64,000 bases of DNA, taken from contig MPMZ01000004.1 in assembly GCA_002238765.1 (NCBI GenBank), positions 1 through 64,000 of the forward strand, read 5' to 3'. The notes under the pieces were generated by a model that saw nothing but the letters and a program-made list of their open reading frames with translations, had not been told where the DNA came from and ran no database searches. The DNA is from Nitrospira sp. bin75 (GTDB lineage: Bacteria > Nitrospirota > Nitrospiria > Nitrospirales > UBA8639). The position numbers and the translations under genes are program-made. Positions 22,344-50,543 of this stretch are shown in pieces (the stretch's first letter is position 1; each line of letters opens with the position of its first letter).

Positions 22344-22560
22344 GGCGACATCCTCCTGGTCGAAGGTGAAAGGCGGGGAGGTTTTGAGAAGTCTCTATGT
22401 GACACTATAAATTATATCGGACAAATGGTAAATGGTGTTATTGGGAGTTTGCCTGGGAGAGAGGAGGCAGGATCGATTCAGCCGCGCCAACTCTTTTTGC
22501 GTTGGACATCTGTTTCGAGAGCCTGCTATATCAGGGAGAAGGGTTCGCGGGTTGCTGGAT

Positions 22561-22602
22561 GCCCTCTCACCCCAGCCCCCTCCCACGTGGAGGAGAGAGA
22601 AA
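22561..22602. repeat. Family A repeat upstream of the DUF192 gene
   Basis: 'CTCTCACCCCAGCCCCCTCC' followed by 'GTGGAGGAGAGAG' is the same element as at 4986-5029. It lies immediately before the DUF192 start codon and may provide purine-rich sequence near its ribosome-binding site. Confidence 0.55.
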
Positions 22603-22618
22603 ACGGCAGGCGCCAACT

Positions 22619-23125
22619 ATGGGCACAAAAAAGACTCGTGCGGCAGAAGCTCCGTTGACCCCGAACAAAAAGCGCATTGTGTTTCTTGTGCTGATGGCGC
22701 TGTTGTTGATCTCGGGGGCGTTGATGTTTAATGCTCCCAAAGGAACGGAAATCATCGAGGTCCGGTTCCCCAGCGGGAGCAAGCTTCAGGCAGAGGTGGC
22801 CGAGACTCCGGAAAAGTTGTTGTTCGGGTTGGCGTTCCGGGAGACGCTGCCGGACGATCGGGGCATCATTCTTCTGTTCGAGGAGTCCGGTCTTCATAAG
22901 GTCTGGACGAAACAATATCAGTTCAACGTGGATTTAGTCTGGGTGAATGAAAGTAAGCACGTGGTGCATATCGTCGAAACCGCGGTCCCGTGTGCGAGCG
23001 ATCCCTGCGAGTGGTATGGACCGCCCTCTGAACGGGCGCGGTATCTGATCGAGGCGAACAGCGGATTTGTGGATCGGGCCGAAGTGGCATTGGGGCAGGA
23101 ACTCGTCTTTGCCTTGCGGATGTAG
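22619..23125 (+). CDS. DUF192 membrane-anchored protein
   Basis: 168 residues. A transmembrane segment at about residues 19-38 anchors a periplasmic DUF192 domain: 'EVAETPEKLLFGLAFRETLP', 'GIILLFEESGLHKVWTKQ', 'NVDLVWVNESKHVVHI' and 'ARYLIEANSGFVDRAEVALG'. The fold is known structurally in other bacteria but has no assigned function. ATG 22619 starts just before the hydrophobic helix; a frame back to 22502 runs into repeat DNA. First gene of a run with the Rieske, inhibitor and transaminase genes. Confidence 0.85.
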   Translation: MGTKKTRAAEAPLTPNKKRIVFLVLMALLLISGALMFNAPKGTEIIEVRFPSGSKLQAEVAETPEKLLFGLAFRETLPDDRGIILLFEESGLHKVWTKQYQFNVDLVWVNESKHVVHIVETAVPCASDPCEWYGPPSERARYLIEANSGFVDRAEVALGQELVFALRM

Positions 23126-23165
23126 GCTGTCAGGGAAGGGATTGACGGGAAGGCTTGAGCCTATC

Positions 23166-23501
23166 ATGGACTCTCCATCACCGGACAACTTCGTGCGGAT
23201 CGGCAAGGCGGAGGATGTGCCGCCGGGTGCCTCGAAAGCCGTCAAGGTCAACGGCAAGACCATTGCGCTCTTCAACGTGTCCGGGACACTTTTTGCGATC
23301 AACAACATCTGCCCGCACAAGGGGGGGCCGCTCCATAAAGGCAAGTTGAAAGGGTACGTGATAGGATGTCCCTGGCATGATTTGCAATTCGACGTGCGAA
23401 ACGGGTTCGGGACGGATGGAGGCGGGCAGTGCGTCGCGACCTATGACGTGCGGGTTCAGGATGGCGAGGTTTTCGTCAGTTCCACGTGCAGGGACTTCTA
23501 G
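23166..23501 (+). CDS. Rieske-type [2Fe-2S] ferredoxin
   Basis: 111 residues, a soluble Rieske domain. Cluster ligands are Cys49/His51 ('NICPHKGGPL') and Cys68/His71 ('GCPWHDLQFD'). No signal peptide or membrane helix, so it is cytoplasmic and resembles small-subunit NirD-like or dioxygenase ferredoxins. ATG 23166 matches the family start. Its electron partner is not evident from the neighbours. Confidence 0.9.
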   Translation: MDSPSPDNFVRIGKAEDVPPGASKAVKVNGKTIALFNVSGTLFAINNICPHKGGPLHKGKLKGYVIGCPWHDLQFDVRNGFGTDGGGQCVATYDVRVQDGEVFVSSTCRDF

Positions 23502-23529
23502 ATGAGCCTAACCGGGAATAGACAGTCAG

Positions 23530-23844
23530 ATGGCTGAAGAACGATCCGATAGCAAACCGCTGTATGCCACGGTCGGTGTACCGTTGACCGTCAATCTGTG
23601 GGAGGACCGGACGCGGGGCGAGCAGTGGGTGCCTTCGTATGACCCGAGTCAACTCGTCTTGACGGCGGACGAGTTTTTCCGGACCACCAGCAATAATGCG
23701 GTTGACTCCGGGAAGCGTCAATTCGAATTTGCGCCGCTCCAACCCGGGACGCACCGTCTGGAATTTCAGAAACGGATGGCCTGGAAATTTACGGCCGAAG
23801 CCCGGCGGGTGTTCCTGGTCCACGTGCAGGAGCCGGGTTCCTGA
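23530..23844 (+). CDS. Chagasin-like (I42) protease-inhibitor domain protein
   Basis: 104 residues with the layout of the chagasin/I42 fold. 'VGVPLTVNLWEDRTRGEQW' occupies the place of the NPTTG loop, then a central variable loop, and 'PLQPGTHRLEFQKRMAW' stands for the G-x-H-x-L-x-F-x-x-RPW strand. The canonical NPTTGY and RPW residues are only partly kept. No signal peptide is seen. I42 proteins inhibit papain-like cysteine proteases; inhibitor function here is inference. Confidence 0.55.
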   Translation: MAEERSDSKPLYATVGVPLTVNLWEDRTRGEQWVPSYDPSQLVLTADEFFRTTSNNAVDSGKRQFEFAPLQPGTHRLEFQKRMAWKFTAEARRVFLVHVQEPGS

Positions 23845-23858
23845 CGTTCGGTCCCCTT

Positions 23859-24722
23859 ATGCCCACCATCGCATACGTCAACGGGCAGTTTTCTCCGATT
23901 GAACAGGCGACCATCTCGATCGAGGACCGGGGTTTTCAATTCGGCGACGGCGTCTATGAAGTGGTCCGGACCTATGGCGGAGTTCCTTTCCGGCTATATG
24001 ACCACCTCTTGCGATTGGAGTCGAGTGCCCGGGCGGTGTCCATCCCGGTCCCGCTTTCCCGAACCGACTGGGAGGCGTTGATCCGTGAAGGCGTCCGACG
24101 AAGTGATTGTGCCGCGTGTCTGGTGTATATCCAGTTGACCCGCGGGGTGGCTCCTCGATCCCATCTCTTCCCGAGCCCGGACAAGCCCACGGTGGTGATG
24201 ACGTTTCGGGAAATCCCCGAGCCGGACGGCGCGCTTCAACGGCAGGGCGTCCCGGCGGTCACCCTGCCCGATCTCCGGTGGGGCCGGTGTTCGATCAAGA
24301 GTTTGAATTTGCTTGCCAATGTCCTGGCCAAACAGGAAGCGAGCGATGCCGGCGCCCGTGAGGCGATTTTGGTGAAGGACGGGTTGGTCACGGAGGGCTG
24401 TTCCAGCAACGTATGCCTGGTCGGAAATGGGACAATCGTCACGCCTCCGTTGAGTGATCAATTGTTGGCCGGTGTCACCCGGGCCGTGGTCCTGGATCTG
24501 GCGAGAAAAAACGGCATCGTGGTCGAAGAACGGGAGGTTCCCGAGGAGGAACTGACCCGGGCCGATGAACTGTTCCTGATCGGGACGACGATCGAGGTGC
24601 TGCCGGTTTCCACGCTGAACGGCGTTCCGGTGGGAGACCGCGTGCCTGGACCTGTGACGCAAGCGGTGAGCGAGGCCTTCCGCCGCTGTCTTCTGTCGGA
24701 AACCGGGCAGGAGGCAGGGTAG
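23859..24722 (+). CDS. Class-IV PLP aminotransferase (D-amino-acid transaminase type)
   Basis: 287 residues. Fold-type IV markers: 'GVYEVVRTYGGVPFRLYDHL', the Schiff-base lysine Lys147 in 'RCSIKSLNLLANVLAKQEA', 'AREAILVKDGLVTEGCSSNV' and 'LLAGVTRAVVLDLA'. The RC(D/S)IKSLN pattern is typical of D-alanine aminotransferases more than of branched-chain ones. It would interconvert D-amino acids and 2-oxo acids. Starts 15 nt after the inhibitor-like gene. Confidence 0.88.
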   Translation: MPTIAYVNGQFSPIEQATISIEDRGFQFGDGVYEVVRTYGGVPFRLYDHLLRLESSARAVSIPVPLSRTDWEALIREGVRRSDCAACLVYIQLTRGVAPRSHLFPSPDKPTVVMTFREIPEPDGALQRQGVPAVTLPDLRWGRCSIKSLNLLANVLAKQEASDAGAREAILVKDGLVTEGCSSNVCLVGNGTIVTPPLSDQLLAGVTRAVVLDLARKNGIVVEEREVPEEELTRADELFLIGTTIEVLPVSTLNGVPVGDRVPGPVTQAVSEAFRRCLLSETGQEAG

Positions 24723-24877: not shown

Positions 24878-27800
24878 ATGGTTTATTTCAATCCTTTATC
24901 CATGAAGCGATTTGCTGTTCTGGCCGGGGGAAGCCTGATAGCCCTGGCGTGCTTTTTGCTTCCTCTTGCCAACGCCGAATCCGACGTTTCCGATTCGGCC
25001 GCAGTCATCCAGACCTCGGGGATGAATCACCAGTCCCCTGAGTGGGCCGAGCGCCTCAAAGGGCAGACCATCGTTGAAAATGCCCAAGAGGGGAGAGCCG
25101 AACGCGCCGCGCTCGTTGAAAAGCAGCATGAGCGGTTGATGCAGCAAATGCAGGAAGAAATGGCTGAATCCCCCACGGGCGGCTTCGACACCATGTCCAT
25201 GATGCATCAATACGGTGCCGGCAAAGGCAACTACCTGTTGGCTTCCGATGGCGACATCGAACCGGTCGCGATGACGGGCGGTGGAAAATGCCCGGCCACG
25301 GCTCCGGTGAAGCATTACGATATTTCCGCCATCAACGTGGAAATCACGTTGAATCAATGGCTGGATTATTATCCCGGCTACATGTACGCGCTGACGGAGA
25401 ATATCGAGAACGTCCGGGAAGAGGAAGCCAAGAACGCGGAAGCTCGTGAAGAAGAAGGACACCATAATCCCGGCGGCGTCAAGAACGGGATCCAGGGTCA
25501 ATATATCCAACCGTTGGTGATTCGCGGCAACCAGGGTGATTGCGTGAAGGTCACGCTACGGAACCAGTTGGAATTCGGTGAAGACGTGAGCCTTCACGTC
25601 AATGGGTCCAGCATGGTCGTGAGCAAAACCGGCCAACCCGCGACGACGACCAACCCGGATGCCATCGCCTATGGTCCGGATGAAGATTGCGAAGAAAATT
25701 GTGAAACCACGCCCGTTGAGATGGAATGGTATATCCATCCCGATACCCAGGAAGGCGGGCGGCAATTCCACAGTTACAGTAATGACCGTGAGTTGACCGT
25801 GATGGGTCTGTTCGGGGTGTTTGTGGTGGAACCGGCAGGGTCCAAGTATTTGGATCCTCTGGGCACGGGTCCGGCTCCCGAGATGCCGAGTGGCTGGCAA
25901 GCGATTATCCAAAACGGTATGGGCCCGGATTTCCGGGAATTCGTGTTGATTTATCACGAAGTGGGTGATGAAGCCTTCCGTCCGGTGAACAAACATGGAG
26001 ACTTCCTGCCGCAACGTGATCCGTTGACCGATGCCTACCGGCCCGGGGCCAGGGCGTTGAACTACCGGAGCGAACCGTTCGGTATCAACAACATGCACGT
26101 GCAACATGAGTATTTCGGTTTTGAAGATGAATCCATGGCTTACAGTTCCTATACCTTCGGTGACGCCGGTCCCACGATCCCACGGAGTTATCTGGGCGAT
26201 CCCGCGAAGTACCGGCTGGTTCACGGCGGGTCGGAAGTCTTCCATTCCCACCATCCCCATGGCGGAGCCATCCGGTGGACCCGAAGCCCGCGGGCGGTGG
26301 ATCAGATGCCGATGTGGCACAAGGGGCAGAACGGCCCCGTGAAGTATCCGCTCATCCGTGCCAAGACGGACCGGGTGGACGTGGAAGTGATCGGGCCGTC
26401 CGAAGCGCTGGATCTGGAAACCGAGTGCGGATCGGGGCTGTGTCAATATCTGGCCGGTGACTTCCTGTTTCATTGTCACGTGGCGCACCATTACGTGGCC
26501 GGCATGTGGGGGTACTGGCGGGTTTACAATACCCTGCAAGAGCCCGGCATCCAAAACGACGTGATGGCCCCGCTTCGCGAGTTGCCCGATCGTCTCGGGC
26601 GTATTACCAGGCCGGTGACGTCCGACCAATTGGTGGGCACCACCGTGAGTTGGTTCGGCAAGAAATTCAACCTGGTCGATAACAGTCAAAAAACCGATTG
26701 GGATGCCAATCCGTCCGTCGTTCGGATTTACGATTGGGTCGAAATGCAGTTGCCGACTCGCGGTCTTCCCGGTCACACGGAAGATGAGATCGGCCAGCTC
26801 AAATCGTATGACGCGACCGTGATCGATTGGACCTGGGAAGGCGACCGTGCGATGAGTGAGAAAGAAAGCACGACCGAGAATCCCAAGTATCATCCGGACT
26901 GGCAGGGCTATGAAGCCGGAAAACGGCGGCCCATCTGGTTCGAGCCGACGACGGGCAAAGTCGCGTGGCCGTGGCTGACGCCTCACTTCGGCAAACGGGT
27001 ACCGTTTTCTCCGGACCGGAATCCGGCTCCGTGGTTGGAAATGATCCACCTGGATGAAGACGGCCAGCCGTCCGTGAAGCCGGCGAAACCGGGAGAAAAC
27101 GGGCGGTGGAGCCTGTGTCCGGACCGGGCGGGTTCCCAGGAGTACAACATCCACTTCATCAAGCTTCCGATCGAATTGTCCGCGGCCCAGGGCGATCAGC
27201 CGGCCGTGGTCGATCCGAACGGGTTGTTGTACGTCGTCCACGACGAGGAAGAAGCGATTCGGAACAATAATGATTTGAAGGTGCCGTTGGTCTTCCGTTC
27301 CAATATTTATGATTGTATGGATTGGACCTTGACCAGCGAATGGCTGGACGACGACTTTACGAATTTCCAATCTTCGAAGATCAACACGCACTTCCATTTC
27401 GTGCAGTTCGATAACCAGGCGTCCGACGGGGTGATTTCAGGATTTTCGTATGATCAGTCCGTACGGCCCTTTACCCAATTCGAAAAGAAATCGGACAAGG
27501 GGTTGCCTGTGCCCATGAACGCGAAATTCACCAAGGCGGCCGGCAAGGGCGACCGGACCATTCACGTGACGAATGCCAAACAGTATCACGTCGGCACGGT
27601 GCTGCTCGTGGGGGCGGATAACGTGGAAGGCTCGGAAGTCAAGCGGATCGTCGCCATCGGGAGTTCCGGCGAATCCGCCTCGGCAGGTGGCGGTGGCATG
27701 TATACGGTCAACCCCGGGGACACGCTGGGGGTGATCGCGAGGCAGCACGGCACCGACGTGGCGTCCCTGGTCAGCATGAACGGCCTGGCGAACGCCAACG

Positions 27801-30007
27801 TGCTTTCCGTGGGGCAGCAATTACAAGTGCCCGGGTCCGGTGGGGGAGAAGCGGCGCCGAGTGGCGGGGCGCAGACGATCACCTTCAAGACCCCGTTGGA
27901 GCATGATCATCCGGTCGGGGACATTGTGACCGTGGAATTCGTGCGACAACGCTTTTGGGTGGATGCCGACGTGGGTTCCGTATTCTGTCATGATCACGCG
28001 TTCGGCGGAACCACGTGGCCCCATGGCGCAGTGTGTTCTTTCCTGATCGAGCCGTTCGGATCGACGTGGCATGATCCGGCGACCGGTGAAGCCAAACGGA
28101 CCGGTCCGGTGATGGATATTCACACGGTTGAGCCCGTGGGGTATGGAGTCAGCGGAAGTTTCCGTGAGTTGATGGTGCAAATCATGGATACGGTTCCGCA
28201 TACGGTCAACGTGGTGACGGCCGGGAATCCTCCGGGTCAGCCCGTGGAAGTGGCGTTGGAGGCCGGTCGAACCGTGTCCTTCCAAATGCCGGCGAACGAG
28301 TTGATCAAAATGACGCCGATGCCGTTCCTCAACGGAGGGACGCATACTACGGGTGGCGCCTTGAATTTCCGGGCCGAACCCTTTGCGCAACGGTTGGCCA
28401 ACAACCCGGACACCTCGCAGTTGTTCAGCAGCAGCATTCACGGGGATCCGAGTACGGTCACGTTGCGGGCGTACCTGGGCGATGCCATCGTTTTCCGGCT
28501 TATCGACGTGACGATGAACGAGAGTAACGTCTTTACCGTGTCCGGTCATAACTTCCTGACCGAACGCTATGCCGGTGACGCCAACCGGAAAAATTCCATT
28601 CACATCGGCATTGCCGAACGATACGACCTGGTTGTGCCGCAGGCCGGTGGGACGAGACTTCAGGCCGGTGATTACATGTATTTCAACGGCCGGAGTTCGA
28701 AGTTGTCCGAAGGTTCGTGGGGTTTGATCCGGGTCATGGATAAAGAAGTGCCGGATTTGAAACCGTTGCCGAATGCGGCGTACGGCGGACCGGGACTCAA
28801 GAAGCAGTTGCCGATATGTCCCGCCGATGCCCCGGTGAAGAATTTCAACGTGGTGGCGATCGATTATCCGCAGATGGCTTTCAATCCCAACGTGGAAGAA
28901 GCCATTGAAGTGGACTTTGAGCGGACGATCGAAGTCCGGAACCCGGATGCCAAAATCTACGTCCTGGAAGAAGAGGTGACGAAGGTTTCCGGAGAATTCC
29001 AGCCCATGCCGCTCACCTTGCGGGCCAACGTGGGTGACTGTCTGAAAGTGAAACTGACCAACAAGATGAAAGAAAGCCGGGCGTCGTTCTCGGCCTTCTC
29101 CCTGGCGTTCGATCCCAAGGATTCTCAAGGGGTGAACCTCGGCAACAATCCGGGGGATCAAACCTTGGCTCCCGGAGAAAGCCGGACCTACACCTACTAT
29201 GCCGATCCGGCCGTCGGGGAAACGCAATCCCTGGTGTGGGATTGGGGTAACGTGGCCATGAACCCGCGCAACGGATTGTTCGGCGGGGTCGTGATCGGTC
29301 CCGAGGGTTCGCAGTATCGTGATCCGAAGACCGGAGCCGACATTTCCGAGAAGAACAGCTGGATCGCCGACGTGATTGTCGATCGGTCGGTCCCCGGAAA
29401 TGAACATCGGGCCAATTATCGTGACGTGGCCCTGTATTTCCAGGATGAAGACAACATCATCGGCACCAGCTTTATGCCGTACGTCCAAAACGTGGCCGGG
29501 TTGGTCGGGGTCAATTACCGGAACGAACCCTATTTGTATCGTGAAGAACAGGGGTGTTCGTTGGGCCGGATGTTCCAACCCTGTAACGTGGATGAACCGA
29601 ATGAACCGGCGACGCCGATTATCGAGGCCCATGCCGGCGACCCGGTTCGGATCCACGTGTTTGGCGCCAGCAACGAGCAAAACGGCATGTTCACGCTGGA
29701 AAAACATGAGTGGCCCATCGAGCCGTTCATGGAAGGTGCCGACCACATCAGCGTCGTGGAATTTTCCGGGTCCGAGGGGATCGACGCGTTTGTTCCCTCG
29801 GCCGGCGGCCCGTATTCCATGCCGGGGGATTACGTGTACAGCAATGCGCGCTTGCCGTATTCCCAGTCCGGTCAATGGGGGTATTTCCGCGTGTTGTCGA
29901 AGAACGATCAGCGAATCCTCCCCCTGAGCGGGGCTTCCCCGGGAGTCAAGGAAGCCAAGGAGGTTCAACCTGAACGAGGCAGCGTCCGCCCCATCTCGTT
30001 TAAATAA
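24878..30007 (+). CDS. Giant six-cupredoxin multicopper oxidase with inserted LysM domain
   Basis: 1709 residues, exported (signal peptide about 1-34), with GAAGGAGG upstream. Three two-domain cupredoxin units begin at Cys138 ('CPATAPVKHY'), Cys747 ('CPDRAGSQEY') and Cys1314 ('CPADAPVKNF'). Second domains start at Y/FR(S/A/N)EP motifs near 396, 1164 and 1547. Copper-type motifs: site C-like 'FHSHHPHGG' (His456/458/459/461), site D 'HCHVAHHYVAGM' (His532-Cys533-His534, His538, Met543: complete type-1 site), then site A-like 'HFHFVQFD' (His838/840) and site B-like 'FCHDHAFGGTTWPHG' (His1038/1040). C-D therefore precede A-B. A LysM domain (about 941-985, 'YTVNPGDTLGVIARQHGTD') with Gly/Ser linkers sits between A and B. 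Unit 3 lacks these ligands. MnxG/MofA-like Mn(II) oxidation is a possibility, not shown. Confidence 0.88.
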   Translation: MVYFNPLSMKRFAVLAGGSLIALACFLLPLANAESDVSDSAAVIQTSGMNHQSPEWAERLKGQTIVENAQEGRAERAALVEKQHERLMQQMQEEMAESPTGGFDTMSMMHQYGAGKGNYLLASDGDIEPVAMTGGGKCPATAPVKHYDISAINVEITLNQWLDYYPGYMYALTENIENVREEEAKNAEAREEEGHHNPGGVKNGIQGQYIQPLVIRGNQGDCVKVTLRNQLEFGEDVSLHVNGSSMVVSKTGQPATTTNPDAIAYGPDEDCEENCETTPVEMEWYIHPDTQEGGRQFHSYSNDRELTVMGLFGVFVVEPAGSKYLDPLGTGPAPEMPSGWQAIIQNGMGPDFREFVLIYHEVGDEAFRPVNKHGDFLPQRDPLTDAYRPGARALNYRSEPFGINNMHVQHEYFGFEDESMAYSSYTFGDAGPTIPRSYLGDPAKYRLVHGGSEVFHSHHPHGGAIRWTRSPRAVDQMPMWHKGQNGPVKYPLIRAKTDRVDVEVIGPSEALDLETECGSGLCQYLAGDFLFHCHVAHHYVAGMWGYWRVYNTLQEPGIQNDVMAPLRELPDRLGRITRPVTSDQLVGTTVSWFGKKFNLVDNSQKTDWDANPSVVRIYDWVEMQLPTRGLPGHTEDEIGQLKSYDATVIDWTWEGDRAMSEKESTTENPKYHPDWQGYEAGKRRPIWFEPTTGKVAWPWLTPHFGKRVPFSPDRNPAPWLEMIHLDEDGQPSVKPAKPGENGRWSLCPDRAGSQEYNIHFIKLPIELSAAQGDQPAVVDPNGLLYVVHDEEEAIRNNNDLKVPLVFRSNIYDCMDWTLTSEWLDDDFTNFQSSKINTHFHFVQFDNQASDGVISGFSYDQSVRPFTQFEKKSDKGLPVPMNAKFTKAAGKGDRTIHVTNAKQYHVGTVLLVGADNVEGSEVKRIVAIGSSGESASAGGGGMYTVNPGDTLGVIARQHGTDVASLVSMNGLANANVLSVGQQLQVPGSGGGEAAPSGGAQTITFKTPLEHDHPVGDIVTVEFVRQRFWVDADVGSVFCHDHAFGGTTWPHGAVCSFLIEPFGSTWHDPATGEAKRTGPVMDIHTVEPVGYGVSGSFRELMVQIMDTVPHTVNVVTAGNPPGQPVEVALEAGRTVSFQMPANELIKMTPMPFLNGGTHTTGGALNFRAEPFAQRLANNPDTSQLFSSSIHGDPSTVTLRAYLGDAIVFRLIDVTMNESNVFTVSGHNFLTERYAGDANRKNSIHIGIAERYDLVVPQAGGTRLQAGDYMYFNGRSSKLSEGSWGLIRVMDKEVPDLKPLPNAAYGGPGLKKQLPICPADAPVKNFNVVAIDYPQMAFNPNVEEAIEVDFERTIEVRNPDAKIYVLEEEVTKVSGEFQPMPLTLRANVGDCLKVKLTNKMKESRASFSAFSLAFDPKDSQGVNLGNNPGDQTLAPGESRTYTYYADPAVGETQSLVWDWGNVAMNPRNGLFGGVVIGPEGSQYRDPKTGADISEKNSWIADVIVDRSVPGNEHRANYRDVALYFQDEDNIIGTSFMPYVQNVAGLVGVNYRNEPYLYREEQGCSLGRMFQPCNVDEPNEPATPIIEAHAGDPVRIHVFGASNEQNGMFTLEKHEWPIEPFMEGADHISVVEFSGSEGIDAFVPSAGGPYSMPGDYVYSNARLPYSQSGQWGYFRVLSKNDQRILPLSGASPGVKEAKEVQPERGSVRPISFK

Positions 30008-30040
30008 CACGTCGTTGGGCACGCGAGCGGATGAAAAGGG

Positions 30041-30076
30041 CGGGGAAGCCGGGTGCCGGCTTCCCCGTTTTTTTTC
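30041..30076 (+). terminator. Rho-independent terminator of the multicopper oxidase gene
   Basis: A perfect 12-bp stem: CGGGGAAGCCGG (30041-30052) pairs with CCGGCTTCCCCG (30056-30067), 3-nt loop, then a 9-T run. It isolates the oxidase transcript from the following cupredoxin genes. Confidence 0.93.
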
Positions 30077-30153
30077 CGCGAACGTCAATCTGCAGCCGTT
30101 GGTGTTCGGGGTATCGGATGAGAGGTAGCAATCGCGGGTCAAGGGAGGGATTC

Positions 30154-31065
30154 ATGGCAGTAGGGAGGTGGATGTTGTGCCTGGTCTTGGGGTTGTTCGT
30201 GTCTCCGGGATGGGCATATGAGGAAATATCGGTCACGAACGGGGGAACCATCCGGGGGCAGGTCACGATCACCGGGGATCAACCGCGGCCCATGGCCTTC
30301 AATTTAGTGACGATCCCGGACGCGGTGTATTGTGGACGGATTTCCACCGGGACGGGATGGCGGATCGTGGAAGATTTCATCATCGGTCCGGACGGCAGCC
30401 TCAAAGACGCGGTCGTCATGCTGAACGGGATTGAAAGGGGAAAGCCGTTCGGGTTGCCCAAAGTGCTGATCGAGGCTATTAACTGCGATTTCCTGCCCTT
30501 TGTGAACGTGTTGCGCGACCAGGATGAAATTACGGTGATCAATATGGATCCCGTTGAGCACGACATCCAGGGATACGAAACCGCCCGGGCGCGCGGCGCC
30601 AGGGTGCTGTTTAATCGACCCTTGCCCATGAATCCGTTTCACAAGGTCCTGGGCATGTTGCACAGCCATAAGCATTTGCCTGGCAGGCCCATGATTCAGA
30701 AAGTTCATCTGAGGAAGGGACGCAACCTTTTCGTCATGCAATGCGGGTTTCATCCTTATATGTTCTCCTGGGGCGTGGTGGTCAAGAATCCCTATTATGC
30801 CATTACCAAGGAAAACGGGCGGTTTGAACTGACGGATGTGCCTCCGGGCGAGTATACGTTGACGGTCTGGCATGCCGGCATGAAAAAATACCTGGAGCAG
30901 AAGATGACCGTTCCCGCCAACGGTACGGTGAGCCACGACTTCCGGTATGAATCCGTGAAAGAGCGAAGAAGCGTGCATGAAATGCAGGAGAATCCCCACT
31001 TCGGCCTGGAGTTGCTGGGGGAGGGCGTGGAAATTATTCCGTCGGTCAGGCTGCAGAATCCATAA
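30154..31065 (+). CDS. Exported cupredoxin / carboxypeptidase-regulatory-domain protein 1
   Basis: 303 residues. Start 30154 has GGGAGGGA upstream; signal peptide about 1-21. The first ~210 residues form a cupredoxin-like domain with His136 ('PVEHDIQGYE') and a C-x2-H-x2-M cluster, Cys197/His200/Met203 ('MQCGFHPYMFSW'). After 'NPYYAITKENGRFELTDVPP' comes a carboxypeptidase-regulatory (transthyretin-like) domain ending near residue 280. It is probably a periplasmic copper electron carrier or scaffold. Close paralogue of the next gene and more distant paralogue of the 36252 gene. Confidence 0.8.
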   Translation: MAVGRWMLCLVLGLFVSPGWAYEEISVTNGGTIRGQVTITGDQPRPMAFNLVTIPDAVYCGRISTGTGWRIVEDFIIGPDGSLKDAVVMLNGIERGKPFGLPKVLIEAINCDFLPFVNVLRDQDEITVINMDPVEHDIQGYETARARGARVLFNRPLPMNPFHKVLGMLHSHKHLPGRPMIQKVHLRKGRNLFVMQCGFHPYMFSWGVVVKNPYYAITKENGRFELTDVPPGEYTLTVWHAGMKKYLEQKMTVPANGTVSHDFRYESVKERRSVHEMQENPHFGLELLGEGVEIIPSVRLQNP

Positions 31066-31080
31066 CGGTCAGGAGTATAG

Positions 31081-31989
31081 ATGAAATCTTTGCTGGCAAC
31101 CGGCTTGTGCCTGATCCTCTCGATCCCGGTTTCCTCTGTTTGGGGGTATGAAGTCAAAGAGATTGCCGGCGGGGGAGCGGTTCGCGGAACGGTCACCCTG
31201 TCGGGCGCGGTGCCGGACCCCAAGGCGTATAACCTGGTCATTTTTCCTGACCCCGAATATTGCGGCCGGATCTCCAACGGCAATGGGTGGCGCCTGCTCC
31301 GTGATTTTCTGGTGAACGAGCATGGCCAGGTCCTGAACGTCGTCGTGCTGCTGGAGGGGGTGCAAGAGGGTAAACCGTTTTCCCTTTCCGTGCCTCGGGT
31401 CGAAGCGCGGGATTGTCGATTTTCGCCCTTTACGACCGTCGTGCGAAGCGGGCATGGTATCGAAGTGGTGAACATGGACCCCGTGATGCACGATATCCAG
31501 GCCTACGAGACCTCGACCGCTATGGGGACCCGGGTGTTGTTCAATTCGCCGCTGCCTTTCAACCAACGTCATCGACGCGGGGATTTGCATGCGATGCACG
31601 ACCATAGACCCGGAGAATCCCTGGTCCGGCAGTTCCAGTTGAGCAAGAAACGCCGGACGTTTGTCATGCAATGCGGGTTTCACGCGTATATGCAAAGCTG
31701 GGCCATTGCCGTGGACAATCCGTACTACGTGCTGACCGACGAGAACGGGCGGTTTTCCATCAAAGACGTTCCGCCCGGGATGTATGACCTCCGGGCGTGG
31801 CATCCCGGCATCAAGCAGGTCATCAAGAAGCAAGTGACCATTGAGCCTGAGGTGAGCCTGACGGTCGATTTTCAGTTGCCTTCACCGGGACGACGCAAGA
31901 CGGCGCTCACGGTTCGGACGCCCCCCCGGTTCACGCCGGCAGCCTTGGGCCGGGAATTCACGATCGAGCCCCTTCTCGAGCGCCAGTAA
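31081..31989 (+). CDS. Exported cupredoxin / carboxypeptidase-regulatory-domain protein 2
   Basis: 302 residues, colinear with its upstream neighbour: signal peptide (1-20), His137 ('PVMHDIQAYE'), Cys198/His201/Met204 ('MQCGFHAYMQSW'), then 'NPYYVLTDENGRFSIKDVPP' and the regulatory-type beta domain. AGGAG precedes the ATG, and the 15-nt gap to the first copy indicates one operon and a tandem duplication. Its C-terminal ~35 residues are basic and differ from copy 1. Confidence 0.8.
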   Translation: MKSLLATGLCLILSIPVSSVWGYEVKEIAGGGAVRGTVTLSGAVPDPKAYNLVIFPDPEYCGRISNGNGWRLLRDFLVNEHGQVLNVVVLLEGVQEGKPFSLSVPRVEARDCRFSPFTTVVRSGHGIEVVNMDPVMHDIQAYETSTAMGTRVLFNSPLPFNQRHRRGDLHAMHDHRPGESLVRQFQLSKKRRTFVMQCGFHAYMQSWAIAVDNPYYVLTDENGRFSIKDVPPGMYDLRAWHPGIKQVIKKQVTIEPEVSLTVDFQLPSPGRRKTALTVRTPPRFTPAALGREFTIEPLLERQ

Positions 31990-39675: not shown

Positions 39676-40764
39676 ATGCTGCATCGACTCGTACTCCGGG
39701 TGATTCCCCAACTGAACGCGGTTGTCACTGAACCCGACGTTCGAAGGCGGAAGCGTTGGGTGATGCTCGCTCCGGGGTTTGTGGCTTTTGTCCTTTATCG
39801 TCTTTTAAAGGACGTGCTCCCGTTATCCGACCCGCTGGCTTTGTTGGCGTTCAGCGGCCTCCTTTCGACGCTCACCGCGTATTGGGCGTATGCGATGGGA
39901 CGTCGGGAATCATTCGCCCGAATTTATCAAACCGATGGTCCCGGTCGTCTTCTCTGGATCGGCGGATGGATCGGGTTTGTCTACGGCGTGCAGCTTTCGT
40001 TGTTGGTGTTGGCGATCCTGGCTCTTTTCGTCGATTACCATTTTCTGGTTCACCCTGAAGGCCCGGCCATGATGGCCCTGATTATCCCTTGTACGTCGGT
40101 CACTCGTGATGCCTTTGAAATCGGCCACGTGGTCCGCATGGAATCCCAGGGTGTGCGGATGGTGACCTTTCCCGACGGCAAATCATTCCGTGAGTTACTC
40201 CAACGCGACTTTCCACATCTGGCCCGATGGGTGGCAGCGGGGTTCGTGACTGGGGGGGCGACGGCGGTCCTGTCCCGGCTCGGCTGGACCGGCGATGGGA
40301 GTGAGGTCGGCCCGGCGATTCTGGTGTGTCTCGCAGCGGCGTGTCTCGCTCATGGAGCCTTTTTGTCCGGGAAACGTCCGCTCGACGATTTCTCGGATCG
40401 CTTCAGAATAGAATCGTGGTGGGAGGCCTGCCGGTTTTGGGCCTGGCCGTGTTTGACTTTTGCATTTACATACTATTTAGTGCAATTCGGCCTTCTTGTG
40501 TTTGTTTTGCGGCTCGAGGAGGCGGCTCTGTTCGTTCACCTGGTCGTCGGTGGGGTGACCGCGGGGATGATGGCGGGGTATGGCTACTTTTTGGGGGCCC
40601 GGGTGTTTGTCGAGTCGCAAACACAAGGCGGGATCTCCGAAGGTTTGGCACGTTGTCCGTTCGTGATGGAAATTTTGGCCAAAACCGGATGGGTGACGTC
40701 GAGACCCAAGACCGGTCCCGTCGAAATCAGGCAAGGAGAGCCCTCGCGAGAGATGCTTTCATGA
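39676..40764 (+). CDS. Multi-span membrane protein of unknown family
   Basis: 362 residues with about eight hydrophobic segments (for example near 28-45, 50-70, 92-120, 188-206, 255-280 and 282-305). A soluble patch 'VRMVTFPDGKSFRELLQRDF' lies mid-protein. No family recognised. Its last four bases overlap the start of the bd-like oxidase gene (ATGA), so it is translationally coupled to it and probably serves the oxidase as partner or assembly factor. Confidence 0.7.
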   Translation: MLHRLVLRVIPQLNAVVTEPDVRRRKRWVMLAPGFVAFVLYRLLKDVLPLSDPLALLAFSGLLSTLTAYWAYAMGRRESFARIYQTDGPGRLLWIGGWIGFVYGVQLSLLVLAILALFVDYHFLVHPEGPAMMALIIPCTSVTRDAFEIGHVVRMESQGVRMVTFPDGKSFRELLQRDFPHLARWVAAGFVTGGATAVLSRLGWTGDGSEVGPAILVCLAAACLAHGAFLSGKRPLDDFSDRFRIESWWEACRFWAWPCLTFAFTYYLVQFGLLVFVLRLEEAALFVHLVVGGVTAGMMAGYGYFLGARVFVESQTQGGISEGLARCPFVMEILAKTGWVTSRPKTGPVEIRQGEPSREMLS

Positions 40765-42617
40765 AATTGTCAATTTGCCTGTTGTGTGTGCTGGGCTGGT
40801 TGCTCGTCGTTCCCATGCCGGGGTGGGCCGGTTCCGATGCCCCTGCCCTTACCGAAGACGTCTACTACAAGACCGACGGAATCCCCCAAGGCCCTCCGGC
40901 CGCGGAAACCGTATCCACCTACCCCCATTGGCAACCGCTCAATAACCGGATCATCATCTGGCTCGTAACGCAGCAGCATACGTATTTCGGCGGGTTCGTC
41001 CTGGCGCTGCCGTTGTTTGCGTTCCTCCTGGAATTTTTCGGCCTCACGCGCCGTGACCCGCAGGCAGCCCAACGCTACGACGGACTTGGTCGCGATATTC
41101 TTCGGGTCGGGGTGCTCTCGCTCTCGGTCACGGCGTTGCTCGGCAGTGTGATGCTCTGTGCGTTCGTGACGTTCTACCCCGCTTTTATGCAATATATGGG
41201 ATCGACGTTTCAACAGATGATGCCGTTGTATGCCGCGGTGTTTCTTGGTGAGTCCTTTCTCCTCGTGTTGTACTACTACAGTTGGGACCGCCTGGCCCGG
41301 GGAGCAGGGAAATGGGTGCATCTGTCGATCGGGGTGCTCGCGAATGCCATGGGAGTGCTGTTACTCCTGTTGGCCAATTCCTGGGCGTCTTTTATGATGG
41401 CGCCCGCGGGGGTGAATGCCGAGGGACAGTTTCTGGGGAACGTCTGGCATTTATTGCATTCGCCGTTATGGAATCCGCTCAATGCCCATCGGTTCCTGGC
41501 GGATATCATGTCCGGGGGAGCCGTGGTCGTGGCCTATGCGGCGTATCGGTTTTTGAAAACCCGGGTCCAGGACGAGCGGGCGTATTATGATTGGGTGGGT
41601 TACGTGTTCATTGTCGTGGTGGTGTGTGCCTTGCTCCCCATGCCTTTTGCCGGGTATTGGCTGATGCGCTCCGTGTTCGAATTCCGTCAGGAGATGGGCA
41701 TGACCATGATGGGCGGATTGTTGTCCTGGCTGTTCGTGGTTCAAGCCACCACCATCGGTGCGCTGTTTCTCGGCATCAATTATTACATCTGGCAGTCCCT
41801 GGGACGGTTGCGTGGCGGAGAACGGTATCATCCATATTTCAAATTTATCCTCGGGGGCCTGATGGTGGCGTTTCTGGTCTGGTTCACTCCCCATACCATT
41901 GCCATGACCCCCAGTGAAATGAAAGCGATGGGCGCGGCGCAACATCCGGTCATTGGGCAATTCGGGGTGATGTCCGCAAAAAACGGCGCCATTAATATCA
42001 TGATCTGCCTGACGGCCTTGAGCTATCTGTTGTATCGCCGCGCTAATCGCGTCGTGACCGTCCCTTGGGCTGCGGCGGGCAACGTGGCGATCGGGGTCTT
42101 GTTCATTGGGGGCATGGTCAATATCGTCTGGGTCGCGATTTACGGGTTTTTTATCCCCGCGCATATCCGGGTGGGCTTGTCCATTCCACAGGGGGCGACT
42201 ACGGCGACGGTCCTGCTCGGAGGGTTGGTGATCAATCATTTTCTGTTGAAGGGGAGCGAGATTCGAGGTCCCATCCAATGGGGCAGGATCTCCGTACGCG
42301 GAATGGTGGCGTTGTTCGGAGTCGCCGCGACCTTTTCCTGGGTGATGGGGTTGATGGGATATATCCGGTCAGCCGGTCGATTGGGGTGGCACGTGAATGA
42401 ATTGATGGCGGATCTTTCCCCTTGGTCCTTCACCCCTGCCATTACGTTTGCAGCCAAGATGGTGACGATCAATATGGTGGTGTTTTGGGTGTCGGTATTT
42501 TTCATGTTTTGGCTGGCCACGAGGGACAGACGGTTGGCCGTCGTGGAACAGGATGTCCCGGCCGAAACCGGAAACGTCTCTTTCGTGCAGGCGTTCTCAA
42601 GAGAGGAGTCGGCATGA
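40761..42617 (+). CDS. Cytochrome bd-like oxidase subunit, copy 1
   Basis: 618 residues: signal sequence (1-22), a short periplasmic lead ('DVYYKTDGIPQGPP'), then about 12-14 membrane helices. The pattern fits the CydA-like 'bd-like oxidases' noted in Nitrospira: 'TQQHTYFGGFVLALPLFAF', 'LLANSWASFMMAPAGV', 'PMPFAGYWLMRSVFEFRQEM', 'TPHTIAMTPSEMKAMGA', 'VMSAKNGAIN' and 'VMGLMGYIRSAGRLGWHVNE'. The canonical CydA GRQPW loop is absent, and no CydB gene is near. Haem ligands cannot be assigned by eye. Paralogue of the gene at 46151. Overlaps both neighbours by 4 nt. Confidence 0.78.
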   Translation: MKLSICLLCVLGWLLVVPMPGWAGSDAPALTEDVYYKTDGIPQGPPAAETVSTYPHWQPLNNRIIIWLVTQQHTYFGGFVLALPLFAFLLEFFGLTRRDPQAAQRYDGLGRDILRVGVLSLSVTALLGSVMLCAFVTFYPAFMQYMGSTFQQMMPLYAAVFLGESFLLVLYYYSWDRLARGAGKWVHLSIGVLANAMGVLLLLLANSWASFMMAPAGVNAEGQFLGNVWHLLHSPLWNPLNAHRFLADIMSGGAVVVAYAAYRFLKTRVQDERAYYDWVGYVFIVVVVCALLPMPFAGYWLMRSVFEFRQEMGMTMMGGLLSWLFVVQATTIGALFLGINYYIWQSLGRLRGGERYHPYFKFILGGLMVAFLVWFTPHTIAMTPSEMKAMGAAQHPVIGQFGVMSAKNGAINIMICLTALSYLLYRRANRVVTVPWAAAGNVAIGVLFIGGMVNIVWVAIYGFFIPAHIRVGLSIPQGATTATVLLGGLVINHFLLKGSEIRGPIQWGRISVRGMVALFGVAATFSWVMGLMGYIRSAGRLGWHVNELMADLSPWSFTPAITFAAKMVTINMVVFWVSVFFMFWLATRDRRLAVVEQDVPAETGNVSFVQAFSREESA

Positions 42618-43290: not shown

Positions 43291-43641
43291 ATTTCTAAGG
43301 GAACCGTTATAGACGTGCTTCTCGGCGTGGTGGTCATGGGGACGGTCGGGGTGCTCATTGGCATCCTCCTGGGCGACTCTTTTCTGTATTTTGCCACAGG
43401 GCTGGGGGTCATGTTAGGGGTCGGGATCGGTCTCATTGGCGGGCGGCGGTTTTTTTTCGGGATTTTTGCCGGAACGGTTTTAGGGGGTCTGCTGGCCTGG
43501 GCCGTTTCCGGCCCTGAAAACATTACGGTCGGGGCGGGGTCCGGCGCGGCGATGGGCGGATTTTTGGGGATTTGGATTTCGATGTTGCTTGACGTGTTTT
43601 GGCGAAAACCAGTGGAGGCCTCTTCCGACCACGAAGGGTAG
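43291..43641 (+). CDS. Small glycine-rich membrane protein, possible ATT start
   Basis: About 116 residues with three hydrophobic Gly-rich helices ('[20 protein letters not shown]', '[18 protein letters not shown]', '[18 protein letters not shown]'). The only good Shine-Dalgarno, AAAAGGAG at 43276-43283, stands 7 nt before an ATT codon at 43291 in this frame; the first in-frame GTG is at 43315, with no ATG near. The start is therefore unsure. It lies between the DUF3047 gene and the SUMF1 genes. Family unknown. Confidence 0.58.
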
Positions 43642-43696
43642 CGCCTGGACAGGAAGAGCGGGCGGTTCAATCCATCCGGGCATAGGAATCAGAAGC

Positions 43697-44611
43697 ATGG
43701 AAAATCGCGGGGTGCTTATCGGCTCCATCATCTTTGTCTTTGCCTCGTTTATCTTGATGATGGTCATGCTGATCTACGAGACGTATAAGGGGAAACAGGA
43801 AATGGACAAGTTGGTCTCGAATTCTCAAACGGCCAAACCTCGAGTTATCGCCCCGGTGAAAGTCAAGGATTATTCGATGTATCGTACATTGGTCGGCAAT
43901 GAAGGCCGTGAGATGGTCGAAATTCCCGAAGGGCCTTTTACCATGGGGCATGATCAGGAGGACCCCGATGAAGCCCCTGCGCATCCGGTGTACGTGAAGA
44001 CGTACTTCATCGATCTCAAGGAAGTCACCCAGTCGGAATACGCGCGTTTTGTCAAGATGACCAAGCGGGAGCAACCTCAGGTGCCGGTTTTTGAAGAAGA
44101 TATTGCCAAACTTATGGACCCCGATTTTCCCGTGGTGGGCATTGGTTGGAATGATGCCTTTGCCTATTGCCGGTGGGCAGGGAAGCGGTTGCCGACCGAA
44201 GCCGAATGGGAAAAGGCCGCTCGTGGTGAGGGCCGGCGACTCTATCCTTGGGGGAATGAGTTCAACTACATGGTTTCCAATATTGACGGAGAGGACGATG
44301 GGTTCAAGTATTTGTCGCCCGTGGGCTCTTTTGAAGGCGGGCGTAGTCCGTATGGGGTCTACGACATGACGGGAAACGTTGCCGAATGGGTGGCAGATAC
44401 CTATGACGCCCAATATTATCAAAATTCACCATTTCGCGATCCTCCCGGTCCGGACAGCACGGAATTTAAAGTCATTCGAGGCGGAACTTGGCGAGATTCC
44501 AAACTCAACGCGAGATTGACTAAACGGTTTTCAGCCAAAATGTGGAGAACCGACGCGACGATCGGGTTCCGTTGCGCCCAGGACGTCGAGGCCGTACGAC
44601 AAGTATCCTGA
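43697..44611 (+). CDS. Membrane-anchored SUMF1/FGE-sulfatase-domain protein 1
   Basis: 304 residues. An N-terminal transmembrane helix (about 6-28) is followed by a periplasmic formylglycine-generating-enzyme (SUMF1) fold: 'MVEIPEGPFTMGHDQED', 'FIDLKEVTQSEYARFV', 'RLPTEAEWEKAARGEGRRLY', 'GVYDMTGNVAEWVADTY', 'VIRGGTWRD' and 'IGFRCA'. The cysteine pair of true formylglycine-generating enzymes is not evident, so this may be a binding or structural variant. Such genes occur beside respiratory clusters in Nitrospira. Close paralogue of the next gene. Confidence 0.87.
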   Translation: MENRGVLIGSIIFVFASFILMMVMLIYETYKGKQEMDKLVSNSQTAKPRVIAPVKVKDYSMYRTLVGNEGREMVEIPEGPFTMGHDQEDPDEAPAHPVYVKTYFIDLKEVTQSEYARFVKMTKREQPQVPVFEEDIAKLMDPDFPVVGIGWNDAFAYCRWAGKRLPTEAEWEKAARGEGRRLYPWGNEFNYMVSNIDGEDDGFKYLSPVGSFEGGRSPYGVYDMTGNVAEWVADTYDAQYYQNSPFRDPPGPDSTEFKVIRGGTWRDSKLNARLTKRFSAKMWRTDATIGFRCAQDVEAVRQVS

Positions 44612-44648
44612 CGGAGCCGGATCGGGGGGCTATCGAGGTTGCGCGACC

Positions 44649-45557
44649 ATGGACGGGAGATTGAAACTGATCCTGCTTGCCGTGATTTTATTCATGGTGG
44701 GCATGCCCATGTCGGGAATTCTGCGTGGGACCAAGGCTCCTCCCCCTGATCCCGAGCTTGCGGAGGTGGTCAAACCCGTGCAGGCGACCGGGACTTCTCC
44801 CTCAGACCCACCCCAGCCGGTCATCCAAGAAGAAATGGTGTTTATTCCTTCCGGGCAGTTTGTTCAGGGGACCAGCCAGGGCGGGTTTAATGAACGCCCC
44901 GAGCGTCTCGTGACCCTCGAGGGATTCTGGATTGACCGGTTTGAGGTGACGAACCATCACTATCGCGTATTTGTTGAGCAGACAGGTCATCGAAAACCGG
45001 GCCCTCCGTCTCGCTATGCCAAACGGTTAGCCCAATTGCGTGGGCCCAATCAGCCTGTTGCCTACGTCTCCTGGCATGACGCCGATGCGTATTGCAAATG
45101 GAAGGGAAAACGTCTGCCCCAGGAAGCCGAATGGGAAAAGGCGATGCGAGGGATAGACGGCCGGTTGTGGCCCTGGGGAAACTCCCCGAGAATCCACAAG
45201 GCCAATCTGGGAGGGGTCGAAGACGGCTATGAAGCTACGGCCTCCGTTGGCTCGTTCCCATTGGATCGAAGCCCTTTCGGTGTGCATGACGGCTTCGGAA
45301 ACCTGATGGAATGGACCGACAATTGGTATGAAGAGCAGACTCGCGATCGCAGTGAACCCGGAGAAGCGAATTTTGCCGATCGTGGAGGATATAAGACGCT
45401 ACGCGGTGCCGGGTATACCAGCTATGGAAGCGACTTGAGGATTACGGCCAGAAATTTCATGGTTCCCGACTTTCGGGATGAAACCATAGGCTTTCGTTGT
45501 GCGGCGTCGGGGCGGGAGCCACCTGAGCGCACGCTGGCCGCTCGTCCCCAGGATTAG
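44649..45557 (+). CDS. Membrane-anchored SUMF1/FGE-sulfatase-domain protein 2
   Basis: 302 residues; N-terminal hydrophobic helix (about 5-24) and Pro-rich linker, then the SUMF1 fold: 'MVFIPSGQFVQGTSQGG', 'WIDRFEVTNHHYRVFVEQ', 'RLPQEAEWEKAMRGIDGRLW', 'GVHDGFGNLMEWTDNWY', 'TLRGAGYTSYG' and 'IGFRCAA'. It lies 37 nt after its paralogue. Its 3' end faces the convergent small gene at 45574. Confidence 0.87.
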   Translation: MDGRLKLILLAVILFMVGMPMSGILRGTKAPPPDPELAEVVKPVQATGTSPSDPPQPVIQEEMVFIPSGQFVQGTSQGGFNERPERLVTLEGFWIDRFEVTNHHYRVFVEQTGHRKPGPPSRYAKRLAQLRGPNQPVAYVSWHDADAYCKWKGKRLPQEAEWEKAMRGIDGRLWPWGNSPRIHKANLGGVEDGYEATASVGSFPLDRSPFGVHDGFGNLMEWTDNWYEEQTRDRSEPGEANFADRGGYKTLRGAGYTSYGSDLRITARNFMVPDFRDETIGFRCAASGREPPERTLAARPQD

Positions 45558-46053: not shown

Positions 46054-46150
46054 GGAGCCTCGTTAGCAGCAGTCATCCTGAAAAACTGGACAATTGGCAT
46101 AAAAGGTTTTTTATTCTTTGAATAATTTCAAAGAAAGAAGGAGGTTGGTC

Positions 46151-48115
46151 ATGGGTCGCCTCAAAAGTCGACAGTCCGGGAAGAAATTCCTGGCAGTCAC
46201 TGGTCTTTTTGCAATGGGAGTCATGCTGTTGCTCCCGATCTTTGTGGCACTGCCGGCCTTGGCCGGTGGGGGTGCTCCCGCAGCAGGCGGGCCGCCTCCC
46301 GATGTCGTCGCCGCCGAGGAAGCTGAAGGGGTGGAGGGCGAAGAAGCAAAAGTCGAAATCGGGAGAGACGTCTATTACAAAACAGAGGGCCCCGTCGTCG
46401 GTGCGCCGGCTCCAAAGACTGCCGATACGGAAGAATTTTATCCCCGCTATAATTTCGAAAGCCGGGTCCTTCTCTGGGTGGCCAATCAGCAGCATCTGTA
46501 CTATGGCAGCTTTGTGTTGGCCGTGCCGATCTTCTGTATGTGTATCGAGTTTGCCGGGTTGGTGAGCAAGGACAAGGCGATGGCGAAGAAGTATGACCAA
46601 TTGGCGTACGACTTTGTGAAAATCAGTCTGACCGCCTACTCGCTGACTGCCATCCTCGGTGGTATTCTTATCTTCACGTTCCTGACGTTGTACCCTGCTT
46701 TCTTTGGGTATCTTTCCAGCATTTTCCGCCCGGTGATGCACATCTACGCCTTGATGTTCGTGGCGGAAAGCGGAACCCTCTACATCTACTACTATGGATG
46801 GGACAAGATGAAAGATGGGTTGCTGAAATGGCTCCATTGCAGCATGTCGGTGGTGTTGAACGTCATCGGGACGGTGTTGATGTTCCTGGCCAATTCCTGG
46901 ATTGGTTTCATGATGTCACCCGCGGGGGTTGATGAGCAGGGACGATTTCTTGGAAATATCTGGCACGTGCTTCATACGGCGCTCTGGAATCCCCTGAACG
47001 TGCACCGGATTCTCGGGAATATGGCCTTTGGTGGCGGCGTGGTGGCGGCGTATGCCGCGTACCGGTTCCTGTCGGCAAAGAATGATGAAGAGCGTGCCCA
47101 TTTCGATTGGATGGGATATATCGCGATGTCGCTGGGCGTGGCCTTCCTGATCCCTCTGCCGTTCGCCGGCTATTGGCTCATGCGCGAGGTGTATGCCTAC
47201 CGTCAGCAAATGGGAATTACCCTGATGGGCGGGCTGTTGGCTTGGCTGTTCATCATTCAGGCCACCATGATCGGCATCCTGTTTTTGACGACGAACTATT
47301 ATCTCTGGCAAGCCCTCGGAAGAATGACCGGAGGGGAGAGGTTCCAGCGGTATATCAAGTATTTTGTGTTCATTTTAGTCGTCGGACTATTGGTCTTTAT
47401 CACTCCCCATACTATCGTGATGACTCCGGCTGAATTGAAGGCCATGGGAGGCCAGCAGCATCCCGTATTAGGGAACTATGGCGTGATGTCTGCTAAAAAT
47501 GGGGGGATTAACGCGATTATCATGACCACGATCGCCAGTTTCATATGGTATCAGCGTGGCAACAGGGTCCCGGCGGTGAAATGGGCAAAATTCGGAAATA
47601 TCTTCCTGATCACCTTCTTTGTGGTGGCCCATCTGAATAACATTTGGGTGGCCTGTTACGGGTATTTCATCCCGGCGAACGTTCGAATCGGCCTCTCTGT
47701 TCCACAGGTGGCCGGAACGCTCTCGTGCCTGTTCTTCGGATCGGCGTTAAATCTGGCCATGCTGAGTAAGTCCAGGGAACTCGGACCGATTCGATGGGGT
47801 CAGATTGCGCCACGATCACAGTATGCCCTGATTATGCTGGCAACGGCCTTTACGTGGATGATGGGATTGATGGGGTATATCCGGTCATCGGTGAGGTTGT
47901 TCTGGCACGTCAATGAGATTATGCGGGACAATTCGCCTTGGGCGTATACGCATACCATTGGGTTTGGGGCGAATGTGATCTCCTTTAACGTGTTGTTCTT
48001 CTGGATCACTATTCTGTTTGTCTTTTGGCTTGGAGCCCTGGGTGCCAAGAAAGCGCCCGTGCCCGCGACGCAACCTGTTCCTGGTGGGGCGCCGCAACCT
48101 GCAACTGGTCATTAA
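46151..48115 (+). CDS. Cytochrome bd-like oxidase subunit, copy 2
   Basis: 654 residues. GAAGGAGG precedes ATG 46151; a TTG-started frame from 46118 is less likely. Signal sequence (about 15-39), then a Gly/Pro/Glu-rich periplasmic lead ending 'DVYYKTEGP', then the same helices as copy 1: 'NQQHLYYGSFVLAVPIF', 'LANSWIGFMMSPAGV', 'PLPFAGYWLMREVYAYRQQM', 'TPHTIVMTPAELKAMGG', 'VMSAKNGGIN' and 'MMGLMGYIRSSVRLFWHVNE'. Conserved membrane His residues recur at matching places. The tail is Pro-rich. No CydB or haem-copper subunit is adjacent. Electron donor is probably the cytochromes c or quinol that follow. Confidence 0.82.
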   Translation: MGRLKSRQSGKKFLAVTGLFAMGVMLLLPIFVALPALAGGGAPAAGGPPPDVVAAEEAEGVEGEEAKVEIGRDVYYKTEGPVVGAPAPKTADTEEFYPRYNFESRVLLWVANQQHLYYGSFVLAVPIFCMCIEFAGLVSKDKAMAKKYDQLAYDFVKISLTAYSLTAILGGILIFTFLTLYPAFFGYLSSIFRPVMHIYALMFVAESGTLYIYYYGWDKMKDGLLKWLHCSMSVVLNVIGTVLMFLANSWIGFMMSPAGVDEQGRFLGNIWHVLHTALWNPLNVHRILGNMAFGGGVVAAYAAYRFLSAKNDEERAHFDWMGYIAMSLGVAFLIPLPFAGYWLMREVYAYRQQMGITLMGGLLAWLFIIQATMIGILFLTTNYYLWQALGRMTGGERFQRYIKYFVFILVVGLLVFITPHTIVMTPAELKAMGGQQHPVLGNYGVMSAKNGGINAIIMTTIASFIWYQRGNRVPAVKWAKFGNIFLITFFVVAHLNNIWVACYGYFIPANVRIGLSVPQVAGTLSCLFFGSALNLAMLSKSRELGPIRWGQIAPRSQYALIMLATAFTWMMGLMGYIRSSVRLFWHVNEIMRDNSPWAYTHTIGFGANVISFNVLFFWITILFVFWLGALGAKKAPVPATQPVPGGAPQPATGH

Positions 48116-49514: not shown

Positions 49515-49554
49515 TCCTTAAACTCTGTCATTCAGAAAACGGGAGTTTAATACG

Positions 49555-50520: not shown

Positions 50521-50543
50521 GCGAAGAGGAGCGGAGACGACCC

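Follow-up and report, generated by a model that had tools for sequence, protein, structure and literature searches.

Multicopper oxidases carry four copper motifs, namely, HxH, HxH, HxxHxH, and HCHxxxHxxxxM, and modules that bind the cell wall are as a rule attached at protein termini. MnxG is the Mn(II)-oxidizing multicopper oxidase of Bacillus (PMC5622069, in part). Excerpts of a second source describe, in Nitrospina gracilis and Ca. Nitrospira defluvii, a putative multicopper oxidase that resembles the Mn oxidase of Bacillus SG-1, belongs to an NXR cluster that includes cytochrome bd-like oxidases, and has a proposed role in the defense against reactive oxygen; the searched text of that source mentions no LysM for this oxidase (PMC3578206). 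As for LysM domains, the NlpC/P60 and LytE endopeptidases (PDB 4uz2/4uz3 and 8i2e) carry two or three consecutive copies. According to the available part of PMC4356369, the affinity is modest, in the micromolar range, and several LysMs are important for anchoring, chitin oligomers are bound as well, and the contacts of the Thermus thermophilus LysM1 with chitohexaose involve V21, G24, T26, L27, F50, and the side chain of Q53.

Here, we analyze a Nitrospira oxidase that carries one LysM nested in its catalytic domain. The oxidase family and the LysM domain are both known, and their nesting is unreported in the literature searched. An earlier note on this DNA knew of no oxidase with such a layout, and we also found no description of one in the open-access literature of PubMed Central, among the matches listed; the accessible main text of PMC10367259 contains no LysM, despite one term count.

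A giant MnxG-like multicopper oxidase

The window, i.e., the whole stretch of 64,000 nucleotides of Nitrospira sp. bin75 that was analyzed, contains at 24878-30007 (+ strand) one unbroken open reading frame (ORF), with a GGAGG upstream of its ATG, that encodes a giant MnxG-like multicopper oxidase of 1709 amino acids. This assignment is based on the following matches. (i) Cu-oxidase_3 was matched above its cut-off (E 5.7e-8). (ii) The NCBIfam MnxG model NF041487 was matched with an E value of 4.8e-35 and 119.9 bits; since its equivalog cut-off is 3100 bits, the protein is a relative and was not filed as MnxG, and its identity with MnxG proper was ruled out. (iii) MnxG of Bacillus sp. PL-12 (PDB 9bxa) was the closest match in both sequence and fold, being the best solved relative in phmmer (E 9.8e-73) and rank 1 in the Foldseek search (E 1.7e-47). 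The Nitrospira oxidase is longer than the MnxG chain of 9bxa (1709 versus 1227 amino acids), and the order of its copper motifs is identical to that of a Priestia homologue. A search of its own genome returned one full-length match, the oxidase being the only full-length member of its family found there.

Two AlphaFold models were built with rows from the oxidase family. Model 1 covers residues 131-1130 (62 rows, mean pLDDT 63.5, pTM 0.61), and model 2 covers residues 705-1709 (59 rows, mean pLDDT 67.3, pTM 0.70). A VIA structure alignment with 9bxa gave a Z of 22.6 and an rmsd of 3.9 over 660 residues, the aligned rows being mainly model residues 613-976 of model 2, outside the LysM part. The TM of model 1 against 9bxa was only 0.32. 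Since the models are middling, we claim no distance between the LysM and the copper sites.

All four copper motifs were found in the oxidase (all on the + strand). HSHHPH (residues 456-461, 26243-26260) corresponds to HxxHxH and HCHVAHHYVAGM (residues 532-543, 26471-26506) to HCHxxxHxxxxM, both as read in alignments; we take the latter to contain type 1 and type 3 copper ligands. The first HxH pair is HFH (residues 838-840, 27389-27397), and the second is HDH (residues 1038-1040, 27989-27997), with both histidines of either pair present in 90 of 90 rows. Over the 90-row alignment, the 12 ligand positions are conserved in 88 to 90 rows, the exceptions being gaps or one G. Judged by their pattern, HFH and HDH are trinuclear-type motifs, and they flank the LysM. 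Kinship to MnxG is the only hint at the substrate and suggests Mn(II). Among the eight neighbors of the oxidase, no match to an MnxE or MnxF model was found in a library whose content of such models is unconfirmed.

Further downstream in the window, at 40326-42617, 46118-48115, and 48198-52373, a pair of cytochrome bd-like subunit I proteins is encoded; cytochrome c genes come after them, together with one protein that has a domain of the ethylbenzene-dehydrogenase type. This group resembles the NXR/bd-like cluster with its multicopper oxidase as described in excerpts of PMC3578206; bd-like oxidase genes are present in both, the two being compared by description only. Two adjoining genes with FGE-sulfatase domains are located at 43589-45557.

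The extra beta-module and its LysM domain

Comparison with homologues delimits an extra beta-module that is inserted in the cupredoxin after the first HxH pair and before the second (residues ~865-1019; 27470-27934, + strand); it hosts the LysM and amounts to ~155 residues including it. Module and LysM are features of the Nitrospira oxidase beyond MnxG. The examined homologues of the Bacillus type and from haloarchaea lack the module (L158, L159, and MnxG 9bxa); in the Priestia and Halomarina proteins, the first HxH region leads almost directly to the strand that precedes the second HxH. The module is present in the Nitrospirota proteins and, in a shorter version, in the Streptomyces homologue L157. 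No Pfam model matched the module above its cut-off (one match, E 0.0048, 17.5 of 28 bits). The LysM-less form matches the phage tail assembly family phrog_1082 (L109:2811-3110 and L081:2613-2912, with E values of 1.5e-6 and 1.9e-4, respectively), on the basis of which the module might represent a small beta unit of wide occurrence.

The earlier note had recognized a LysM pattern at residues ~941-985, and the HMM search placed the domain there. PF01476 spans residues 942-985 (27701-27832, + strand) over its full length (model positions 1-43 of 43), with an E value of 3.3e-13 and 49.8 bits at a cut-off of 20.9. The 44 residues excised and searched alone gave an E value of 7.8e-16, and the PF01476 scan of the own genome scored the domain at 56.3 bits; apart from the oxidase, that scan detected a LysM in two ORFs, with 229 and 496 amino acids, respectively. 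The region 27660-27880 corresponds to residues 928-1001 of the single ORF and contains the strings quoted in the note as well as both Gly/Ser/Ala linkers, which were read directly at residues 929-941 on the N side (27662-27700, + strand) and 986-1000 on the C side (27833-27877, + strand).

LysM and linkers are situated at the tip of a hairpin of the extra module, in the LysM-bearing copies only. In the 90-row alignment, the hairpin closes via a short turn in 61 LysM-less rows: the segment aligned to residues 914-1011 has a length of 29 residues in 59 of them and of 31 residues in the other two, as compared with 91-107 in the 29 LysM-bearing rows. The flanking strands had been proposed to form one interrupted fold, which is what this closure indicates; it also indicates that the LysM insert is modular. 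The proposed position between copper sites A and B stands if these sites are the HxH pairs H838/H840 and H1038/H1040, but the interrupted hairpin belongs to the extra module and not to the copper-site sheet. As read from the alignments, the insertion is for this reason nested, with the LysM in the beta-hairpin tip of a module that is itself inserted in the cupredoxin. In both AlphaFold models, the LysM is predicted as strand-helix-helix-strand with a block pLDDT of about 73-81 in the core, whereas the linkers have mostly a pLDDT of <50 and are set between the hairpin strands. These predictions agree with the suggestion that the LysM loops out, as a separate folded unit on flexible linkers that leaves the oxidase fold intact.

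Distribution and history of the insertion

With a 202-residue probe spanning the insertion site, LysM-bearing copies were detected, as an unbroken match, in 30 of the 235 Nitrospirales genomes searched. These 30 all belong to one family (f1, 48 genomes), across its 10 genera, and the probe detected none in the 187 other Nitrospirales genomes. A PF01476 scan of the 48 f1 genomes for above-cut-off LysMs in open frames of >1000 amino acids returned the identical 30. In a draw from the phylum, 20 of 395 genomes matched the LysM-site probe, all from f1; other phyla were sampled through plasmid records, 18 of which gave a match, and the LysM was absent from the site in the 3 examined. The remaining 18 f1 genomes comprise 15 of genus g9, two with a LysM-less orthologue (G002 and G007), and one in which the gene is cut at a contig end (G004). 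Based partly on passages of PMC12342949, f1 is probably the marine lineage IV/UBA8639, partly sponge-associated. The earlier note had stated that its proposal would be refuted if numerous known homologues shared the insertion; there are 29 other genomes with the insertion, all from one family, and none was found described.

The genes next to the oxidase were compared in a set of 32 related loci that was collected with six peptide patterns and consequently holds close relatives only; four loci stop short of the site. The conserved upstream neighbors (22502-24722, + strand) are DUF192, Rieske, 23530-23844, and a class IV aminotransferase, and directly downstream are two CarboxypepD_reg-domain proteins (30031-31989, + strand; PF13620, E 1.1e-9 and 1.1e-10). 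Among the 18 LysM-bearing loci, 15 are preceded by the aminotransferase and followed by both CarboxypepD_reg genes, and the other three (L041, L043, and L045) are limited by contig ends. Of the 10 LysM-less loci that reach the site, several start near a contig end, and the aminotransferase is upstream in L060 and L061 only. The LysM-less MnxG-like paralogues of Nitrospirales share oxidase, module, and hairpin with the LysM-bearing form and, apart from L060 and L061, differ from it by the lack of both the LysM and the aminotransferase neighbor in the loci compared. The two CarboxypepD_reg proteins are related and in tandem (30031-31065 and 31081-31989); loci of LysM-less paralogues have one only.

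An artifact, either by chimeric assembly or by a chance pattern, was ruled out and retains a practically negligible probability: the identical site recurs in 30 genomes, full-length open frames are present in most of them, the loci are syntenic, and the PF01476 score is as given above. No point in favor of an artifact was found.

The 90-row tree was computed without the insert columns (quick LG+G4, SH-aLRT only), and open frames of <1000 amino acids and rows with a core identical to that of a retained row were excluded. The LysM label requires at least 5 changes on this tree, 4 of which are forced by starred branches. (i) The LysM-less L060 and L061 fall within a 16-row clade (99*) together with 14 LysM-bearing rows. 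They share its neighborhood, namely, DUF192, Rieske, 23530, and the aminotransferase upstream and two CarboxypepD_reg genes downstream, and their hairpin has 2 residues more than that of all 59 other LysM-less rows. Clade position, neighborhood, and hairpin length taken together, L060 and L061 have apparently lost the LysM secondarily, the additional residues being what a deletion scar would look like. (ii) L031, L032, and L034, from another paralogue group, have a LysM at the identical place. L032 and L034 are incomplete, and L031 has a frameshift close to query residue 491, due to either mutation or sequencing error. Sliding identity revealed no clear local transfer as expected for gene conversion; right up to the insert, similarity to the own paralogue group prevails in the flanks, the opposite being seen in one later part of L031. 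The LysM of these three sequences may reflect an ancient gain with losses or a transfer.

Possible mooring of the oxidase to peptidoglycan

We consider it reasonably probable that this MnxG-like oxidase resides in the periplasm and that its one LysM moors it to peptidoglycan. Residues 1-34 (...KRFAVLAGGSLIALACFLLPLANA/ES; 24878-24979, + strand) resemble an export signal by inspection, and of the 25 LysM-bearing homologues inspected, most start with a similarly hydrophobic stretch, L030 being cut at a contig end. The protein would accordingly be exported, most likely to the periplasm, where the LysM would bind GlcNAc-containing glycan strands of peptidoglycan. The oxidase would be held in the wall layer and work as its LysM-less relatives do, oxidizing a metal ion, perhaps Mn(II), with O2 as the acceptor, and the LysM would be a positional add-on outside catalysis. 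In favor of mooring are the complete LysM, the intact copper ligands, and a layout kept by selection within one family; against it are the single LysM, for which binding may be weak, two replaced sugar contacts and an evolution faster than that of the oxidase (both below), its absence from L060 and L061, and the 18 of 48 f1 genomes (G004 with its cut gene included) in which it was not found.

The inserted LysM belongs to the LysM family of the above cell-wall enzymes, its nearest solved relatives (4uz2/4uz3, E 2.7e-17; LytE 8i2e, E 9.5e-16). Ten core positions are identical in all 29 rows: Y942, V944, G947, D948, I953, A954, G958, L964, N968, and G979. When the sugar contacts of LysM1 reported in the available part of PMC4356369 are mapped through the alignment, V21 and G24 are kept as V944 and G947 (29 of 29 each), T26 as T949 (T in 23, S in 6), and L27 as L950 (28 of 29), whereas F50 is replaced by N974 (N in 26, D in 3) and the position of the Q53 side chain by the variable S977. 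Since the alignment also shows N and S at both groove positions differing from 4uz2 in the 229-amino-acid LysM protein of the same genome, these two replacements are no strong argument against binding.

Selection was estimated as dN/dS by the Nei-Gojobori method for every pair among 10 sequences of the genus, several more distant pairs being saturated in dS and giving no ratio. The values were 0.105 for the LysM, 0.183 for both linkers together, 0.099 for the hairpin flanks, and 0.042 for the rest of the oxidase. The LysM is thus constrained, under purifying selection by this measure, and evolves faster than the oxidase (0.105 versus 0.042). These data bear on the idea of a passive insertion, i.e., a LysM that folds, has no important ligand, and is tolerated at the hairpin tip. 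We regard this as rather unlikely, although it is the alternative with most in its favor: the LysM is dispensable in L060, L061, and most paralogues, it is single, its dN/dS is 2.5 times the oxidase value, and two of its sugar-contact positions are unlike 4uz2. A ratio well below 1, the invariant core, and the fact that 30 of 48 f1 genomes, from all 10 genera, have a LysM-bearing copy argue the other way.

The place of the module between the two HxH pairs would also allow for a glycan-gated oxidase, in which the ligand of the LysM alters the hairpin module and, through it, the copper cluster, so that activity is turned on and off or adjusted. The linkers, which are of low confidence on either side of the LysM and change fast, point to mechanical independence, and the module is retained in LysM-less forms, which makes gating very unlikely. 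We give just as little credit to a combined version, in which the LysM moors and regulates, a nested wall sensor relaying glycan binding via the hairpin module to the copper cluster so that the oxidase is active only when seated on peptidoglycan.

The earlier note had left open whether the oxidase would be tethered to peptidoglycan or to a matrix. A surface-exposed oxidase with its LysM on an extracellular glycan, such as sponge chitin, extracellular polysaccharide, or biofilm matrix, would fit the sponge association of 72.73% of the lineage IVb genomes (PMC12342949, in part) and the binding of chitin oligomers by LysM (PMC4356369, in part). This reading is nevertheless quite improbable: the copies occur in all 10 f1 genera, beyond one ecological group; inspection of the protein revealed no surface-anchoring sequence; and the related putative oxidase of Nitrospina gracilis and Ca. 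Nitrospira defluvii is termed periplasmic in excerpts of PMC3578206. Taking the signal-like N terminus, the missing surface anchor, and the spread over the genera together, a matrix appears less likely as the LysM target than peptidoglycan.

The gene just upstream of the oxidase (23859-24722) encodes a protein close to D-amino-acid transaminase (TIGR01121, 274.9 bits at a cut-off of 277.45). D-Amino acids enter peptidoglycan, and a functional link of this transaminase with a wall-bound oxidase is therefore conceivable.

If the LysM does bind peptidoglycan, it would place a large copper oxidase at a defined layer of the envelope, and deletion of the LysM would be a direct handle on the role of the oxidase, for which the natural LysM-less orthologues offer a clean comparison. 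In this family of probable nitrite oxidizers, a module of the wall-binding type is situated inside the catalytic part of a redox enzyme, and every genus has retained it.
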